Below are positions 52,825-61,295 of a DNA stretch of 64,000 nucleotides, piece by piece. The notes under the pieces are model-generated. The model saw only the letters and a list, made by a program, of their open reading frames with translations. It did no database searches and had not been told where the DNA came from. Each line of letters begins with the position of its first letter. Position 1 is the stretch's first letter. The stretch is from the NCBI RefSeq assembly GCF_000025885.1, contig NC_014011.1, positions 1,860,001 through 1,924,000 of the forward strand, written 5' to 3'. A program made the position numbers and the translations under genes. This DNA is from Aminobacterium colombiense DSM 12261 (GTDB lineage Bacteria > Synergistota > Synergistia > Synergistales > Aminobacteriaceae).

Positions 52825-54438
52825 ATGGGAATTACTGTACGTCAAATGCTGCGAATACCCGAATTGAACAGGATGAAAGTTATTGCCGGAGAAAGCGGCC
52901 TTGACACTAATTATGTAACCACTGTTACCGTTCTCGACGCCCCGGATATTCAGAGGTGGGTTCATGGGGGAGAATTTGTCATAACTTCCGGATACATTCT
53001 TAAAGACGATCCTGACTCTCTCGCACGGATAATTGAATGTCTTAGCCGCGGGGGTATGGCTGCTATCGGCATCAAATTTGAACGTTTTTTAAAGACTCTC
53101 CCGGCAAGTGCGAAGGAAACAGCTGACCGTCTTCATTTTCCTGTTATTGATATTCCCATCGACTATGCATTCAGTGATATTATCAACCCTGTCCTTTCAA
53201 GGGTTGTCAACGCCCAGGCCCATGAACTCAGTTTTTCAGAAAAAGTGAGTCAATCTTTTTTTGAACTCATTATCAATGGAGAAGAGGTTGATCCTATTCT
53301 CAACAACCTCCATAACTTTATTCACGTAGACATTGCCTTTGTGGACTCCATTTTCGGGCAAAGTTATTTCTGCGCTCAATCTGACAGCTTTATCGAGCTG
53401 ATTCGGGAAACTGACCTGCCCCGGCTTATTCGAAAGGTTCCTAACCGGACTGTAGCCATTGGGGACAAAGTGTATGGGTATCTTTTCTTCGATGTAGATT
53501 CCACAAACATTCAAAAGAGCTGGGAAACCTCCCTTTACCATGCCATCTCGGCCCTTCTTATCTGTATCCAGAAAAAACTCGCAAAAAGCGAAGCTGAAAA
53601 ACGATATCGAGATGAATTTGTACAAGACATACTTCTCAAAAATGTCCGTTTTGAAAAGGAGGTCTGGAACCGGGCCAAGCTCTTCAATTGGGATCTCAGA
53701 GGACCCCAGACAGTCGTTGTCATAGATATCGACAATTACAAACATCAATTTGGAATCGCACAACAAATAGACGAAGCCGTATCCAATCTTGAGGAGATAA
53801 AGAAGCGCATTTACTATATCGCTATCTCTCTGGTGAAAATGAAATTTCCCAATGTTCCCCATGCAGAGATGAGCGATTCTATAGTCTTCATCCTTCCGTC
53901 GCCGTTCAACGAATATGAGGTCTTCAAAAAAAACTTAAACGCAACCATAGCCTACATACAGCAGGAAGTTCTAAAGAAAACCCAATTCTCTGTAACAGTT
54001 GGAGTGGGAAGTGTTAAAGACAGCGTTTTCAGTTGTTATCAAAGTTACGATGAAGCTCGAAAGGCCCTTGAAATGATTCGAAGAACCTGCGGAAGGGGAC
54101 ACTCCATCTTCTGGAAAGACCTTGGTGTGTACAAACTTCTAGGGAATCTCTACAATATAAAAGACGCGGTTAATTTTTACTACGATTATATTGGAAAGCT
54201 CATCGACCATGATAAAAAGAAAAAAAACCAGCTCATCGAAACCCTTGAAACGATCATTCGGTGCAACTGGCAACTGAAACCAGCCGCAGAAGAACTGTCT
54301 ATTCATTACAATACGCTGAAATATAGGTTTCGAAAGATCTGCGACCTTCTGGAATTTGACGTTAATGACAGCGAGCAACGCCTGAATGTTGCGCTTTCAT
54401 TAAAACTATACTATATGGACAAATATTTGGACGTTTAA
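52825..54438 (+). CDS. PucR family transcriptional regulator
   Basis: 537 residues with the three-part PucR layout. The N-terminal PucR ligand domain (about 1-125) has VRQMLRIPEL and GGEFVITSGYIL. A central CdaR/GGDEF-like domain follows. The C-terminal HTH_30 (about 475-530) has NWQLKPAAEELSIHYNTLKYR. PucR-type activators respond to purine or ureide breakdown products in other bacteria. The gene sits between the TamB-like gene and the two unknown membrane proteins with M20 genes; a regulator of that block is likely. AGGAGGAG precedes the ATG. Confidence 0.9.
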   Translation: MGITVRQMLRIPELNRMKVIAGESGLDTNYVTTVTVLDAPDIQRWVHGGEFVITSGYILKDDPDSLARIIECLSRGGMAAIGIKFERFLKTLPASAKETADRLHFPVIDIPIDYAFSDIINPVLSRVVNAQAHELSFSEKVSQSFFELIINGEEVDPILNNLHNFIHVDIAFVDSIFGQSYFCAQSDSFIELIRETDLPRLIRKVPNRTVAIGDKVYGYLFFDVDSTNIQKSWETSLYHAISALLICIQKKLAKSEAEKRYRDEFVQDILLKNVRFEKEVWNRAKLFNWDLRGPQTVVVIDIDNYKHQFGIAQQIDEAVSNLEEIKKRIYYIAISLVKMKFPNVPHAEMSDSIVFILPSPFNEYEVFKKNLNATIAYIQQEVLKKTQFSVTVGVGSVKDSVFSCYQSYDEARKALEMIRRTCGRGHSIFWKDLGVYKLLGNLYNIKDAVNFYYDYIGKLIDHDKKKKNQLIETLETIIRCNWQLKPAAEELSIHYNTLKYRFRKICDLLEFDVNDSEQRLNVALSLKLYYMDKYLDV

Positions 54439-54738
54439 TTGTCTATGTATTTCTATCGCTCTACATAAACACTTTTTTATGGTAACCATAAACATATTAT
54501 TATCCCCTTTGATGTTCTTAAATGACGATGAAACACCCCGTTTCATAGTATAAAATCACCTCGTGAAAAAGGAAACTAAATTAAATTCCCAGAAGCTCTG
54601 TTGTTTAAATAAAATTTAGAACTTTCTATCAATAGCGGTATCGGGGTCATTATGCCGCAATGCTAATGGGGAGGCTTTTATTTCCTTTTTTCTTCATTAT
54701 AAACATCTGTCGCTCATATTTTTATGGAGGTGTTATTT
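54439..54738. promoter_or_regulatory. Leader between the PucR gene and the unknown transporter
   Basis: About 300 bases without a gene. It holds an inverted repeat ATGAAAC/GTTTCAT (7 bp, 54529-54546) followed by TATAAA (54549-54554), a possible operator and -10. A second structure GCGGTAT/ATGCCGC with a wobble lies near 54634-54658, just ahead of a G-rich stretch and T run that could act as attenuator. No known riboswitch was recognised. Confidence 0.45.
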
Positions 54739-55470
54739 ATGCCAGAAGCAGTACTTCAAGCGGCGAATAGCTGGGGTGTATGGTTAATAGCTATCGCAAT
54801 CGTAGTTATCGTTCTCATTCAGTCTCTCCTTTATATTCGTCTTTCTTTCAAAACTGCAGACCTGATCGGATTTCCCAGAGAAAAATGTGTTCAGGGTCTC
54901 CGGGCTGGCGCCATTTCAGCCATAGGCCCTTCTATTGCTGTCTTCATCGTTATGGTAGGCATGATGTCAGTAGTAGGCGGTCCTATAACCTGGCTTCGAC
55001 TTTCAATTATCGGTGCGGCACCTACAGAACTTACTGCTGCTACCGTTGGAGCCGAGGCCCTTGGTGTAAAGTTCGGCGGCGCGGATTATGACGTTATGGC
55101 CCTTGCCACCTCATGGTGGACCATGGCTATTAACGGCACAGGATGGCTTCTTGTAACGGCCCTTTTCACCCATAAGCTTGAAGACGTACGGGAAAAGATT
55201 GGCGGAGGCGACCCCAAATGGCTTGCCATCGTTTCTGGGGCAGCCATGCTTGGCTGCTTCGGATTCCTCAACTCTAACAGCATAATGGCCGGGTACAAGG
55301 GACTCAAGGCTGGTGCAGCTGGCGGCGGCGGTCCTCTTTATGCGGCTATCGGAGGGCTTTTGGGCATGGTGTTAATGCTGACCCTTGCTAAAAAACTAAC
55401 GTGGCTCAGAGAGTATACCCTTGGAATAGCCATGCTTATTGGAATGGCCGTAGCCGTCATTCTCGTTTAG
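54739..55470 (+). CDS. Uncharacterised DUF5058-like membrane protein, transporter subunit 1
   Basis: 243 residues, starting at ATG 54739, with GGAGGTG six bases upstream (an in-frame ATG at 54724 lies in front of that site). About seven hydrophobic segments. Glycine/alanine-rich conserved-looking stretches are GLRAGAISAIGPSIAVFIVMVGMM and APTELTAATVGAEALG. It resembles the DUF5058 membrane family, whose function I do not know. Pairing with a second membrane protein in front of two hydrolases suggests a two-subunit importer. It is neither ABC nor TRAP by sequence. Confidence 0.6.
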   Translation: MPEAVLQAANSWGVWLIAIAIVVIVLIQSLLYIRLSFKTADLIGFPREKCVQGLRAGAISAIGPSIAVFIVMVGMMSVVGGPITWLRLSIIGAAPTELTAATVGAEALGVKFGGADYDVMALATSWWTMAINGTGWLLVTALFTHKLEDVREKIGGGDPKWLAIVSGAAMLGCFGFLNSNSIMAGYKGLKAGAAGGGGPLYAAIGGLLGMVLMLTLAKKLTWLREYTLGIAMLIGMAVAVILV

Positions 55471-55491
55471 TTTTGAAGGAGGATTCTTCTT

Positions 55492-56181
55492 ATGGTATCT
55501 AAAGCTGAATTTGACAATATATGGAAAAAACCAGTTATAAAAATAGGTGTTGTCACTGTTTTAATTCCTACGTTTATGTGCTTTTTACCAAACTTGTTCC
55601 TGTATATCAAATTTGGAGTTTTCCCGCCCGTTTCCGTGGCGTTGAAAGCATGGGGCATGATTGCCGCCATTTTTGGCGCCTTCTACATTGTTGAACCTAT
55701 ATCGTATTATCCCGTTCTCGGCTTGACTGGCACATACATCTCATTCTTGAGCGGAAACATAGGCAACCTTCGTCTGCCTTGCTCTGCTGTGGCTCAGGAA
55801 GTAGTGGGAGTAGAAGCCGGATCCTCTGAAGCAGAGATCGTTTCTACTCTTGGTGTGGCTGGTTCTGTTATTACGAATCTCTTTTTTACTACCTTAGCAG
55901 CAGTGGCAGGAGCAGCCCTTCTGGCCATCTTCCCCGAACCCATCGCTATTGCCTTTAAACAGTACACTGTAGCCGCTATTTTCGGTGCTGTCTTTGGCCA
56001 GTTTACCCTTAAGTTCCCTAAACTGGCCTTTGTCGGAATTGCTATTCCCATGCTTCTGCGCATTGTAGGTCCTGCTATTGGGATGCCTTTTTTGACACAG
56101 ACATGGGTTGTCATCGTAGCCTCTGTATTTGGAACTATTCTCGTGGGGCGAATCCTCTATAAAAAGGGACTGCTTCATTAA
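55492..56181 (+). CDS. Uncharacterised membrane protein, transporter subunit 2
   Basis: 229 residues with about seven hydrophobic segments, 21 bases after subunit 1, with AAGGAGG before the ATG. Notable blocks are the polar ENIGNLRLPCS-like SGNIGNLRLPCSAVAQEVVG near 90 and EAGSSEAEIVSTLG near 110, which may line a substrate path. I do not recognise a family. The two proteins probably form one complex, because they are always read in the same direction here and share a leader. The substrate is presumed to be an acyl or aminoacyl conjugate, from the neighbours. Confidence 0.55.
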   Translation: MVSKAEFDNIWKKPVIKIGVVTVLIPTFMCFLPNLFLYIKFGVFPPVSVALKAWGMIAAIFGAFYIVEPISYYPVLGLTGTYISFLSGNIGNLRLPCSAVAQEVVGVEAGSSEAEIVSTLGVAGSVITNLFFTTLAAVAGAALLAIFPEPIAIAFKQYTVAAIFGAVFGQFTLKFPKLAFVGIAIPMLLRIVGPAIGMPFLTQTWVVIVASVFGTILVGRILYKKGLLH

Positions 56182-56255
56182 AAATACAGCAACCCTCATA
56201 GCATCCCACTATGCAATTCTTAACATACTATCAACATTAAAGGGGGTATTCCCTT

Positions 56256-57464
56256 ATGGAAATCATGAAAAAACAAGCACTGGCGCTGCAGGAGCAGATA
56301 GTCACATGGAGGCGGGATCTTCATCAGATACCCGAAACTGAAATGGACACAGTCCAGACTGAAGCCTACATTTGTGCACGCCTTGACGAGATGGGCATTC
56401 CCTACCGAAAGGGCGTAGCAGGACATGGAGTAGTGGCTGTATTGGAGGGGTCAAAGCCCGGCAAGGTGTTTGCCATACGGGCCGACTGTGATGGTCTGCC
56501 TATAAAAGAAGAAGCAGATCTTCCCTTTGCCTCCACTAACGGTTGCATGCATGCCTGCGGGCATGATGTTCACACCGCTATGGCCCTTGGAGCGGCTAAG
56601 ATACTTGCTGACAATAAGGATAAACTCGAAGGAAGGGTTAAATTTATTTTCCAGCCCGGCGAAGAGGGATGCAAAGAAGGTTACGGCGGCGCAAAGCGCA
56701 TGATCGACGACGGCGCTTTAGAAGATCCTCGCCCTGACGTGCTCATAGGGCTTCACACCGGCGCTATCTGGAAGGAGAATTTTAAGCCGGGAGACATCGG
56801 CTATCACTACAGCGGCATTATGGCCTGCATGGATCGATTTGAGATTCTGGTAAAAGGGAAGGGAAGCCACGGTGCCTATCCTCACGGCTCTATAGATCCC
56901 ATCAGCATTGCCTGTCAGATAATCTCTGAACTCCAGACCATCGTGAGCCGAGAGATGAATCCAGTGGAACCAGCCGTTATATCCATTGGTGAAATCCACG
57001 CCGGTACGGCCTTCAACATTATTCCAGGAGAGTGCCGCATCAGCGGGACAGTGAGAGCCCTTTCCACTGAGACCAGAAAATTTATGGCCAGCCGGATTGA
57101 GGAAATCGCCCGAACAGTAGCCCGGGGAATGCGTGGCGACATAGAATTACGTTATGGATGGGAAGGCCCTTCCCCCGTAATGAACAACGCTGAGGTCACC
57201 GAGGAGCTTCGCAAGGTAGCTGTGGAAATTCTTGGAGAAGAACACGTAAAGGAAATCAAGAATGCCTCCATGGGCGGAGAGGATATCGCTTACTTCCTTG
57301 AGGAAATTCCAGGAACTTTCTTCTTCCACCCCAGCTGCAACGAGGAAAAGGGACAGATCTATCCCCACCATAATTCCCGTTTCGCCATAGACGAAGACGT
57401 TTTGTGGATTGGCCCGGCAGTTATGTCCACCATGGCTATTGAGTGGCTGAAAAAACATAAATAA
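56256..57464 (+). CDS. M20D amidohydrolase 1 (aminoacylase/IAA-amino acid hydrolase type)
   Basis: 402 residues of the HipO/AbgB-like M20 peptidases. Metal-site blocks are HACGHDVHTAMALG near 102, FQPGEEGCKEGYGGAKRM near 137 and GLHTGAIW near 168, with the lid domain GKGSHGAYPHGSIDPIS near 205 and the final histidine in PHHNSRF near 370. It splits an N-acyl or aminoacyl amide bond with two divalent metals. The paralogue that follows is of similar length. ATG 56256 has AAAGGGGG upstream. It follows the membrane genes by 74 bases. Confidence 0.88.
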   Translation: MEIMKKQALALQEQIVTWRRDLHQIPETEMDTVQTEAYICARLDEMGIPYRKGVAGHGVVAVLEGSKPGKVFAIRADCDGLPIKEEADLPFASTNGCMHACGHDVHTAMALGAAKILADNKDKLEGRVKFIFQPGEEGCKEGYGGAKRMIDDGALEDPRPDVLIGLHTGAIWKENFKPGDIGYHYSGIMACMDRFEILVKGKGSHGAYPHGSIDPISIACQIISELQTIVSREMNPVEPAVISIGEIHAGTAFNIIPGECRISGTVRALSTETRKFMASRIEEIARTVARGMRGDIELRYGWEGPSPVMNNAEVTEELRKVAVEILGEEHVKEIKNASMGGEDIAYFLEEIPGTFFFHPSCNEEKGQIYPHHNSRFAIDEDVLWIGPAVMSTMAIEWLKKHK

Positions 57465-57470
57465 AACTCT

Positions 57471-57502
57471 GGGGACAGACCTTTAAAGCCCGTCCCCTTT
57501 TT
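57471..57502 (+). terminator. Hairpin between the two M20 genes
   Basis: GGGGAC and GTCCCC form a 6-bp stem with a 15-base loop followed by five T residues. It may partly terminate transcription before the second hydrolase. Confidence 0.5.
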
Positions 57503-57556
57503 ATGCGCCACACTGTATTCTACATTCAAAACTTCGGGAAAGGAGAATACTGTATC

Positions 57557-58744
57557 ATGGCAAACATAAAAGACGAGGCTAAAAGAATTTTGCCTCAAAT
57601 TGTTGAGTGGAGACGGCATATCCATGCTCATCCGGAATTAGGCCTTGAAACACCGGAAACAGAGGCTTATATTGTCAAAGCGCTTGAGGGGATGGGGTTC
57701 CCTTCTTCATCCATTAAAAAAGGCATTGGGGGACACGGAGTAGCGGCAGTTCTGCAAGGAGACATTCCTGGACAAACGTTGGCAATTCGCGCCGATCTTG
57801 ATGCACTACCCATAAAGGAAGAAACAGGGCTTTCCTTTGCCGCCACCAATGGCAATATGCACGCTTGCGCCCACGATGCCCATACGGCCATGGCTTTGGG
57901 AGCTGCCAAGGTGCTCATAAACCATCGCCGCGAATTGAAGGGAAGCGTTAAGTTCATCTTTCAGCCAGCAGAAGAAACCGTTATAGGAGCCAAGGCCATG
58001 ATTGATGACGGAGTGCTCGAAAATCCCAAGGTTAACGCACTCATTGCCCTTCATACAGGGCTGCTCTGGAAAGACTTTTCCGTCGGACAGATTGGATATT
58101 CCCGCGGCGGAATGATGGCTTCCGCCGACCGTTTCCTTATTACGCTAAAAGGGAAGGGGGGCCACGGAGCGACCCCCCATCTGACAGTGGATCCCATCTC
58201 CATGGCTGGTCAGCTTATCTGCCGCCTTCAGACAATTCTCAGCAGGGAGATAAATCCGGTAGACCCGGCAGTTCTCACTATTGGACGAATAGCTGGAGGA
58301 TCAGCCTATAACATCATCCCTGGCGAATGTATCCTAGAGGGAACCGTTCGAGTTCTTGACGTAGCCACACGAAAGATGGTTGAAGAACGCATTCGTGAAC
58401 TGACCGTATCTACGGCTGAAAGCATGGGGGGTGAGGCAATGGTGGAGTATACGCCAGGCCCGCCGCCGGTGATTAACAATGAAGCCATGACCAATAAACT
58501 CATAGCCTCTGCCGCTTTACTTCTGGGGAATGATAACGTTCGGGAAATACCAGAACCATCTATGGGGGCGGAGGACGTGGCATATTTCCTTGAGCAAGTG
58601 CCAGGGACCTTCTTCTTCCATGTTGGGAGCAACCCTGACAAAGGACAAACCTATCCTCACCATAACTCCAGGTTCGATATAGATGAAGAGACTCTTTGGA
58701 TTGGATCAGCCATCTTTGCCCACTTCGCTCTGAATTGGCAATAA
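57557..58744 (+). CDS. M20D amidohydrolase 2, paralogue
   Basis: 395 residues from ATG 57557 (AAGGAG 11 bases upstream). It shares metal motifs with the previous enzyme (HACAHDAHTAMALG, FQPAEETVIGAKAM, ALHTGLLW) and the lid GKGGHGATPHLTVDPIS. The second-shell Gly of the CGH motif is changed to CAH, and a 3-residue difference follows the FQP motif. A terminator-like hairpin precedes it, so it may be under separate control. It probably hydrolyses a related N-acyl or dipeptide-like compound. Confidence 0.88.
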   Translation: MANIKDEAKRILPQIVEWRRHIHAHPELGLETPETEAYIVKALEGMGFPSSSIKKGIGGHGVAAVLQGDIPGQTLAIRADLDALPIKEETGLSFAATNGNMHACAHDAHTAMALGAAKVLINHRRELKGSVKFIFQPAEETVIGAKAMIDDGVLENPKVNALIALHTGLLWKDFSVGQIGYSRGGMMASADRFLITLKGKGGHGATPHLTVDPISMAGQLICRLQTILSREINPVDPAVLTIGRIAGGSAYNIIPGECILEGTVRVLDVATRKMVEERIRELTVSTAESMGGEAMVEYTPGPPPVINNEAMTNKLIASAALLLGNDNVREIPEPSMGAEDVAYFLEQVPGTFFFHVGSNPDKGQTYPHHNSRFDIDEETLWIGSAIFAHFALNWQ

Positions 58745-58812
58745 AACTAGCTGTTAAGGGATAAATTCTACTTCTCCGCAAGGGCAGATGGAACAGGATC
58801 TGCCCTTGCTCT

Positions 58813-59604
58813 CTATTTTCTTAACAATGAAAGAGCATACCCCGCCGCTGCTACGAGAATAATCATGGCTCCCGCTGTAAGGTTGAAGAAAACTGCCAGC
58901 CACAATCCTGCTACAGAAAAGATCAGACTCAGGATAAAGGCTGCGGCCATCATGGAAAAAAGAGAACGGCTCCAGCCTTCGGCAATAGAAGGGGGTATGG
59001 TAAGAAGAGCAATGACGAGAATAAGGCCTACCACCCGAATAAGAAGCACTACGGCCATAGAGATGAGAATTACTGTAACATAATGCATAAGGGCAACATT
59101 GACTCCTCTGGTCTTGGCGAAATCCGTATCATAGACAAAGGCTAAAAATTCCCGGTGATAGGGAATACCCAGCAATAAAGAGAGAAAAATCAACCCTGCC
59201 ATAGAGATAAGGTCGACGCGGGACACCGAGAGGATGCTTCCAAAAAGGTAGCTCATGAGGTCTTGAGCATATCCAGGAGTCAAGTCTATAAAGATAACTC
59301 CCGCTGCCATTCCCACCGCCCAGAGAACGCCAATAATAGAGTCGGCCCGCCACGGCCTTCGCCATGTGACCCACGCGATGAGAAAAGCCATTACGAGAGA
59401 AAATCCCATCGCTCCCAGAGAGGGAGAGATCTTCAGAAAAAAGGCCAGCCCCACGCCGCCATAGGCAGCATGGGCGATCCCGCCTGCAACAATAACCTGG
59501 CGCCTCACCACTACAATGCTGCCCATCATGCCGCAGATGATGCTTGCGAAAAAAGCTGCCCAGAGAGCATTTTGCATAAACTCATACTGCAGAAGTTCAA
59601 TCAT
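58813..59604 (-). CDS. Zn/Mn ABC transporter permease (ZnuB-like)
   Basis: 263 residues from ATG 59604; the ATG overlaps the end of the ATPase gene by 8 bases. About eight hydrophobic segments with the ABC-3 family stretches GGIAHAAYGGVGLAFFL and ALLTIPPSIAEGWS. It is the membrane half of a divalent-metal importer. The last gene of a three-gene operon, its stop faces the convergent M20 gene across 70 bp. Confidence 0.9.
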   Translation of the reverse strand: MIELLQYEFMQNALWAAFFASIICGMMGSIVVVRRQVIVAGGIAHAAYGGVGLAFFLKISPSLGAMGFSLVMAFLIAWVTWRRPWRADSIIGVLWAVGMAAGVIFIDLTPGYAQDLMSYLFGSILSVSRVDLISMAGLIFLSLLLGIPYHREFLAFVYDTDFAKTRGVNVALMHYVTVILISMAVVLLIRVVGLILVIALLTIPPSIAEGWSRSLFSMMAAAFILSLIFSVAGLWLAVFFNLTAGAMIILVAAAGYALSLLRK

Positions 59605-60385
59605 GACGATGCCTGTCCAGATGGTCGTGGCGGGCCAGAACCCGGTGAGGGACACCGTGGGCAACGAGTTCTATTGGGCATGTGCCGCCATATTCCATTT
59701 TCAGCATTTCCTCCGTAATTTCTCCTGACCCATGATAATACACATCCCCGCACACGCAGGCAACAGCCGTAGCACCATTGGCAATAACGGAGAGATCGTG
59801 GCTTACTAAAATGATAGTGACGTTTCCGGCAAAGGAAGCCAAGTCCTCATATAAAACCCCTCTCGCTTCTGGATCAATGCTGGCAAGAGGTTCGTCCATC
59901 AGTAGAATTCGAGGACGGGAGGCTAATGCCCTGGCAATAAGAACCCGCTGGCGCTGTCCTTGGGAAAGATCCCCCATAGGATCATTTCTCCTTCCTGCCA
60001 GGCCCATGTGTTCAAGAACGTCCATGGCAATTTTTTTGTCTTCTTCAGTAAATATCTTCCTTCGACCAATGCCAAGACGTCCCATGAGAACAACATCGAA
60101 GACAGATACGGGGAAGATTTTGTCCCGTACTCCTTCCTGGGGAACATAACCAACAGAAGTAACAGCCCTGTCCGGCGTTGTGCCTAAAACTTCAATTTTC
60201 CCCCTAGCTGGTTTCTCGAGACCAAGGATGAGCCTCAACAACGTTGTTTTACCGCCGCCGTTAGGCCCGATAATCACAAGAAACTCTCCCTGGGGAACCT
60301 GGAAAGAAGCCTGATCCAATACCATGGTTCCATTTTCATAGCCGAAAGACACGTCTTCGAACACAACCGCGGGGGCAAGATTCAT
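59597..60385 (-). CDS. Zn/Mn ABC transporter ATPase (ZnuC-like)
   Basis: 262 residues with Walker A GPNGGGKTTLL near 40, Q-loop YVPQEGV near 84, signature LSQGQRQRVLIARAL near 142 and Walker B RILLMDEPLASID near 162. The last 30 residues (CPIELVAHGVPHRVL then RHDHLDRHRHD) are His-rich and may sense or bind metal. It starts four bases before the binding-protein gene ends (60382-60385 overlap). Confidence 0.92.
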   Translation of the reverse strand: MNLAPAVVFEDVSFGYENGTMVLDQASFQVPQGEFLVIIGPNGGGKTTLLRLILGLEKPARGKIEVLGTTPDRAVTSVGYVPQEGVRDKIFPVSVFDVVLMGRLGIGRRKIFTEEDKKIAMDVLEHMGLAGRRNDPMGDLSQGQRQRVLIARALASRPRILLMDEPLASIDPEARGVLYEDLASFAGNVTIILVSHDLSVIANGATAVACVCGDVYYHGSGEITEEMLKMEYGGTCPIELVAHGVPHRVLARHDHLDRHRHD

Positions 60386-61221
60386 TGCAGGCTCCCTCCA
60401 ATAGCCCTCGCTGTTTCTGCCATATCGTCCATCCAGTTCCAGGGGAGGGGGTCTATTGCTATGATCGTTCCATTTGTTTCCCTTGCGAGATTTTCTGCCA
60501 TTTTTCTTGAATATTGAGGTGATACAAAGATACTTTTTATATTCCTTTCTTTCATCAATTGAATAAGAGCTGCCAAATCAGAAGCTTTTGGCTCTTTTCC
60601 TTCCCTTTCCATAGATATCTGATGAAGCCCGTATTCCCTGGCAAAATAACCCCATGAGGGGTGAGCGACCACAAAATCCTTTTTTCTCACCCTTTCTAAA
60701 AGCTCCCTTATCGTATGGTCAAGCTCATCCACATTCTGACAAAACTGATCATAGTTTTTTGAATATTCCTCTTTATGTCCGGGGTCAACGGCCATGAGAC
60801 CATCACGAATAGCTATCCCTTGAACTTTAACAAGAGAAGGTGCTAACCAGATGTGAGGATCTCCAGGCATTCGTTCAATTCCTGCATAGGTTTCCACAAT
60901 ACGCAGCGAGGGATTTAAGGAAACAAGCCTTGAAAGCAAGGGCTCTTCAAAAGGAAGACCTATAGAAAAATAGACAAGGCTTTTAGAAAGGGCTGCCATT
61001 TGAGCCGGCCTTGGTTCGTAGGTATGGGGGTCATCGCCAGAACGGATCAGCACCTGGACATTGACACGGGCTCCACCGATCTGCTGCACGAAATAGGCCT
61101 GGGGAGGAATAGATACGGCCACATCCATGTATTCTGACCCATAAACAGCTCCTCTGTGGAAAAATGAGAGAGAAAGCAAACAGAATAAGAGCACTGCCTT
61201 CATTACGCCTCCATGAGACAT
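60382..61221 (-). CDS. Zn/Mn ABC transporter substrate-binding protein (ZnuA-like)
   Basis: About 279 residues. The ATG at 61221 has GAGGTGA upstream; ATG 61203 with GGAGG is an alternative. A signal peptide covers about 7-28. Cluster A-1 metal ligands are visible: DDPHTYEPRP near 65, GDPHIWLAP near 125, VAHPSWGYFAREYGL near 190 and a final acidic ligand in IDPLPWNW near 260. No His-rich loop is present, so Mn/Fe is as likely as Zn. It is the first gene of the operon. Confidence 0.9.
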   Translation of the reverse strand: MSHGGVMKAVLLFCLLSLSFFHRGAVYGSEYMDVAVSIPPQAYFVQQIGGARVNVQVLIRSGDDPHTYEPRPAQMAALSKSLVYFSIGLPFEEPLLSRLVSLNPSLRIVETYAGIERMPGDPHIWLAPSLVKVQGIAIRDGLMAVDPGHKEEYSKNYDQFCQNVDELDHTIRELLERVRKKDFVVAHPSWGYFAREYGLHQISMEREGKEPKASDLAALIQLMKERNIKSIFVSPQYSRKMAENLARETNGTIIAIDPLPWNWMDDMAETARAIGGSLQ

Positions 61222-61295
61222 GGTTGTCACCTCGTTATAATGATCAAGCCTTCATTCGTTATTGTATTATTCTACATAAAAACCAATAAAACAAG

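Follow-up and report, generated by a model that had tools for sequence, protein, structure and literature searches.

The window analysed here is a 64,000-nucleotide stretch of the 1.98 Mb genome of Aminobacterium colombiense DSM 12261 (contig NC_014011.1, positions 1,860,001–1,924,000 of the forward strand), and within it a block of plus-strand genes encodes a regulator, two membrane proteins and two hydrolases, in the positions and order given by a first-pass annotation of the sequence. The block opens with a 537-residue PucR-type regulator (52825–54438), one of three PucR genes in the genome, in which the PucR, GGDEF_2 and HTH_30 domains all score above the Pfam cut-offs (118, 59 and 66 bits, respectively). 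A leader (54439–54738) separates this gene from that of membrane subunit A (243 residues; 54739–55470), and the gene for subunit B (229 residues; 55492–56181) starts 21 bases after A. Two M20D amidohydrolase genes follow, M20D-1 (402 residues; 56256–57464) and M20D-2 (395 residues; 57557–58744), both of them intact, with an in-frame ATG upstream at 57503 as a possible alternative start for the latter. Between the two hydrolase genes lies a GC-rich hairpin (57471–57497) that was called on the minus strand; read by eye on the plus strand it is followed by TTTTT, and it could be a candidate attenuator of M20D-2. The block ends at a strong intrinsic terminator on the plus strand (58778–58809; 12-bp stem with seven GC pairs, T-rich tail). 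Directly past this terminator, at 58813–61230 on the minus strand, is a convergent set of genes (permease, ATPase and solute-binding protein) that, judged from sequence, resemble an ABC uptake system of the metal type.

The first-pass annotation had also described an inverted repeat in the leader, which proved to be at chance level: repeats that equalled or bettered it arose in 124 of 200 shuffles of 54439–54738, and its arms are not preserved in the closest relative. An Rfam scan of the leader gave no match near the gathering score to a riboswitch or any other RNA family, and neither an RNA element nor a palindrome has support in this interval.

Both hydrolases exceed the TIGR01891 cut-off of 153.75 bits (349 bits for M20D-1 and 340 for M20D-2), and the putative metal-site Cys and His of the HAC-x-HD motif, together with the predicted catalytic Glu pair, can be read in both sequences. 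Alignment of M20D-2 with solved M20D enzymes matches the HAC-x-HD motif, QPAEE and the His region near the C-terminus. The nearest solved structures for the two proteins are YxeP, a plant IAA-amino acid hydrolase homologue and N-alpha-acyl-glutamine aminoacylase, the closest solved relatives of M20D-1 being YxeP, ILR1-like 2 and N-alpha-acyl-glutamine aminoacylase. Assignment to the carboxypeptidase CpsA family (NF040868) was rejected, as M20D-1 and M20D-2 score 386 and 362 bits against an equivalog cut-off of 500, and a preprint on bile-salt hydrolase (PMC13081902) was set aside since it concerns another amidohydrolase superfamily. TIGR01891 finds ten matches above cut-off in this genome; M20D genes being this common, the presence of one is unspecific by itself, and it is adjacency to the membrane genes that is specific.

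Subunit A belongs to DUF5058 (PF16481; 249.4 bits against a cut-off of 28.2, 4e-74), with profile positions 1–222 of 222 covered. This family has no assigned function, and our literature search found no paper that names it. For subunit B, Pfam returned nothing at E ≤ 1 and NCBIfam offered no family; by profile it is not a DUF5058 protein, and this constant partner of A is itself in no family. Profile comparison of A with B is marginal (E 0.02–0.025, with one to four of 150 shuffles equally good). Conserved residues of A include G63, P64, W85, R87 and E97, and eight positions of B are invariant in 76 sequences (E68, G77, G80, Y82, G88, N89, R94 and P96), B carrying within its conserved stretch 51–100 the segment VEPISYYP..G..GTY..FLSGNI. 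Conservation in both proteins is highest at residues of membrane segments and half helices. The two had been described as neither ABC, TRAP nor MFS proteins, and this holds in that neither matches a Pfam family of ABC, TRAP, MFS or PTS type; nor do the block's genes include the ATPase, binding protein or phosphotransfer (PTS) partner by which an ABC, TRAP, PTS or ECF system would be recognised. Profile searches found no sequence relative of A or B in the PDB, no viral relative of the pair was confirmed, and a viral fold library gave no useful match. Literature searches on split inverted-repeat transporters and on N-acyl amino acid uptake yielded nothing on the A-B pair.

We examined the distribution of the two membrane genes at two scales. 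Among 151 Synergistota genomes, the A and B profiles hit the same 55; 82 of the 84 copies of A adjoin B on the same strand, and every copy of B (82/82) adjoins A, lying downstream of it in 81 of the 82. A collection of species genomes was then scanned with the alignment of B, which gave at least 261 relatives from 304 pattern matches, and the best 80 of these at least 261 relatives make up the set of 80 named loci discussed below; they come from Synergistota, Clostridia, Tissierellia, Negativicutes, Halanaerobiales, Chloroflexota, an enterobacterium (Raoultella) and a haloarchaeon. Both genes are present in 79 of the 80; in the remaining one (L073) the contig stops at B. Even the 31 loci that have A and B in the same frame encode them as separate reading frames. 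A and B are one inseparable, conserved unit. Plasmids also carry the pair, in Natronococcus, Haloterrigena, Halobellus, Halalkalicoccus, Paracoccus, Vibrio and an Arthrobacter-type host, mostly annotated as DUF5058 plus 'hypothetical protein'. A search of E. coli DNA with the Raoultella locus returned only porin genes among the matches listed and is uninformative on the pair.

Several individual loci have features of their own. In the uncultured Dorea contig of L073, B and a divergent PucR fragment lie too close together to leave space for A, possibly through an assembly fault. In a member of the same genus as the window's host (L010; G005:C1:228076-228761), B is in two overlapping pieces in different frames, and is either broken or misread. 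A sister genome (G024:C1) holds four A-B pairs (at 209082, 1862389, 1882686 and 2377289), against one in the window's genome. On a Vibrio diabolicus plasmid (L120, 7217–8651), the pair has no hydrolase and is flanked by transposase genes, and A is unannotated there despite a match of its DNA.

Since A and B are in the same frame and eight codons apart in the window, the pair could be modelled with AlphaFold2 as one chain with an 8-residue read-through linker, the two stops being read as glycine; the 31 naturally in-frame relatives entered the alignment as paired rows and the rest were left unpaired. This artificially tethered chain gave a confident joint placement (mean pLDDT 89.3, pTM 0.84), compared with a mean pLDDT of 82.4 and a pTM of 0.62 for B alone at an about equal number of B sequences. 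The gain is seen in the conserved stretch of B, where residues 51–100 reach a pLDDT of 87–94 beside A and 65–74 alone at equal B depth. The model, in which the predicted contact was formed under an artificial tether, supports an obligate A-B complex.

The hydrolase partner was analysed in the same 80 loci, M20 presence having been no criterion in the locus search. Of the 80, 68 have an M20D gene no more than 1.5 kb from the pair, and M20D coverage is 73% of the first kilobase downstream of the pair, against about 0–2% at 3–8 kb downstream. The A-B-M20 arrangement is far above chance. Of the 12 loci lacking a near M20D gene, nine have another amide hydrolase: an M20C enzyme of the hydantoinase/carbamoylase type directly upstream of the pair (L047, L089, L096 and L119), an ArgE/DapE deacylase in place of M20D (L103), an amidase-signature enzyme by the pair (L055, L058 and L085), or a divergent M20D together with an AstE/aspartoacylase-type protein (L111). 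Two more reach a contig edge (L043 and L073), and L102 is the sole locus with sequence to inspect in which no amide hydrolase was found. More widely, M20C is found near the pair in 16 loci and ArgE/DapE in ten, often alongside M20D. Rather than being scattered without M20 partners, then, the membrane genes have an amide hydrolase within about 2 kb in 77 of the 80 loci; the hydrolase family is exchangeable around a fixed membrane pair.

A constant pair accompanied by hydrolases of unrelated folds, all with the same bond chemistry, is what would be expected of a transporter for the enzymes' substrate, and as the partner enzymes have only their amide chemistry in common, the link between pair and enzyme would be the substrate and not a need for protein–protein contact. 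The constant adjacency of a hydrolase might also be read as a sign that A-B is a membrane scaffold or anchor for the enzyme, with no transport activity, but a specific docking surface would not tolerate partners as different as M20, amidase-signature and AstE proteins, and the best-conserved residues of A and B sit within the membrane; we consider this reading barely plausible.

Our preferred interpretation, which we hold to be probable, is that A and B would be the obligate subunits of a heterodimeric, secondary-type importer that feeds cytoplasmic hydrolases. Its cargo would be N-blocked amino acids, those with an amide or ureido linkage at the amino group (N-acyl and N-carbamoyl derivatives or short compounds resembling peptides), which would enter the cell to be cut by the co-encoded hydrolases, here two M20D enzymes, freeing the amino acid for fermentation. 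We infer in this way transport itself, its direction, the substrate class, the energy source and control by PucR. Given that the block contains no ATPase, binding protein or PTS enzyme, transport would be ion-coupled or facilitated. The first-pass suggestion of a two-subunit importer for N-acyl or aminoacyl compounds gains support from the loci described above, and from fold searches in which no unrelated channel emerged as a confident match, and keeps its outline as a predicted transporter with a putative substrate class; its N-acyl scope is widened to N-acyl and N-carbamoyl amino acids because the hydrolase partner changes.

The same gene order and missing energy source would also suit an antiporter, and end-product disposal is required of fermenters. 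A-B could accordingly be imagined as an exporter or exchanger that expels the product (a free amino acid or carboxylate), the blocked amino acid entering otherwise or by exchange. Haloarchaeal plasmids bear on both readings: in L121 and L125 glycine-cleavage genes are found near the pair and its amidohydrolase, and in L124–L126 a divergent TRIC-family gene is close to the pair. This neighbourhood would fit hydrolysis that frees an amino acid such as glycine; the glycine-cleavage genes count in favour of the importer, and together with the TRIC-family gene they may be counted in favour of export too. Against export, what the partner hydrolases have in common is a class of substrate more than one of product, and no other transporter recurs as a constant neighbour in the operons. 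On balance we regard export or exchange as unlikely, and import of the blocked amino acid as the better account.

In the importer model, PucR would probably turn the block on. PucR homologues are found near the A-B pair in many related loci, and this frequent proximity would equally suit a pair that, instead of acting as a carrier, forms a channel for N-blocked amino acids or senses them and signals to PucR. Many other loci, however, have the pair with no PucR nearby, and no ligand-sensing domain was found by Pfam in A or B, which leaves a channel or sensor role very unlikely. As to RNA elements at other loci, L093 has a lysine riboswitch some 4.5 kb upstream of A-B, and L065 has a T-box some 3 kb downstream of the pair.

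The models also bear on membrane topology. The sizes of 243 and 229 residues first given for the two proteins are correct; the accompanying count of about seven segments each is uncertain, as the models contain six long helices plus broken or half helices. A and B have a common order of elements, comprising a long transmembrane helix, a long broken transmembrane helix, a half helix and four transmembrane helices, and equivalent loops of the two have an opposite charge bias. From the loop charges alone, we prefer six complete crossings plus one re-entrant half helix in each subunit over seven crossings, a topology in which the ends of A would be outside and those of B inside. Such opposite placement of the ends would explain why the genes never fuse.

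Searches with the joint model returned, as top structural matches, mostly prestin and other SLC26 proteins, SLC23 proteins, UraA and band 3, which belong to one superfamily with a 7+7 inverted repeat. These matches are weak (best Foldseek match E 2.9e-3, probability 0.99; by VIA-align, 295 residues at 5.3 Å with Z 8.8, where Z < 13 for helical bundles may reflect a common arrangement; TM-score 0.31), B alone gave no convincing match, and no fold match is confident enough to support transport by itself. One tentative idea, to which we give low credence, is that A and B are the unfused inverted halves of a UraA/SLC26-like transporter, forming an antiparallel heterodimer for N-blocked amino acids. 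The common order of elements, the opposite loop charges and the marginal profile similarity of A and B keep this idea alive at the level of a hypothesis. The six-crossing pattern sits uneasily with a strict 7+7 fold. Were the idea true, A-B would offer a living picture of the pre-fusion state of inverted-repeat transporters.

If the importer interpretation is right, a Pfam family with no function and an unnamed family become a single transporter with a predicted substrate class, spanning gut Lachnospiraceae, amino-acid-fermenting Synergistota and haloarchaea. It would explain the uptake of N-blocked amino acids by such fermenters, and would allow hundreds of 'hypothetical' pairs to be named at once. 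M20D enzymes whose substrate is not known would also be easier to place, because a transporter and its enzyme have to act on one class of substrate.

Known systems offer three points of comparison. In Clostridioides difficile, the transporter gene yfcC, which encodes a putative antiporter of basic amino acids and is controlled by a lysine riboswitch, is in an apparent operon with an M20D amidohydrolase gene (PMC11477304). That block resembles ours in placing a membrane transporter gene beside M20D, and differs in its lysine riboswitch, none having been found by Rfam in the A-B leader. The UraA, SLC26, SLC4 and SLC23 proteins are the weak structural likeness of the joint model discussed above, but they are single chains where A-B is encoded by two genes, and there is no match in sequence: A and B match no UraA, SLC26 or SLC4 family in Pfam at E ≤ 1 and have no sequence relative in the PDB. 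AbgT works with AbgA and AbgB, p-aminobenzoyl-glutamate being imported whole and cut inside the cell by M20D amidohydrolases. AbgT is a single long chain with a Pfam family to itself, whereas A-B consists of two short subunits of other families, neither of which matches the AbgT profile in Pfam (DUF5058, for A, is the sole match). What A-B and AbgT have in common is a membrane transport component, in our case a predicted one, encoded together with M20D amidohydrolases.
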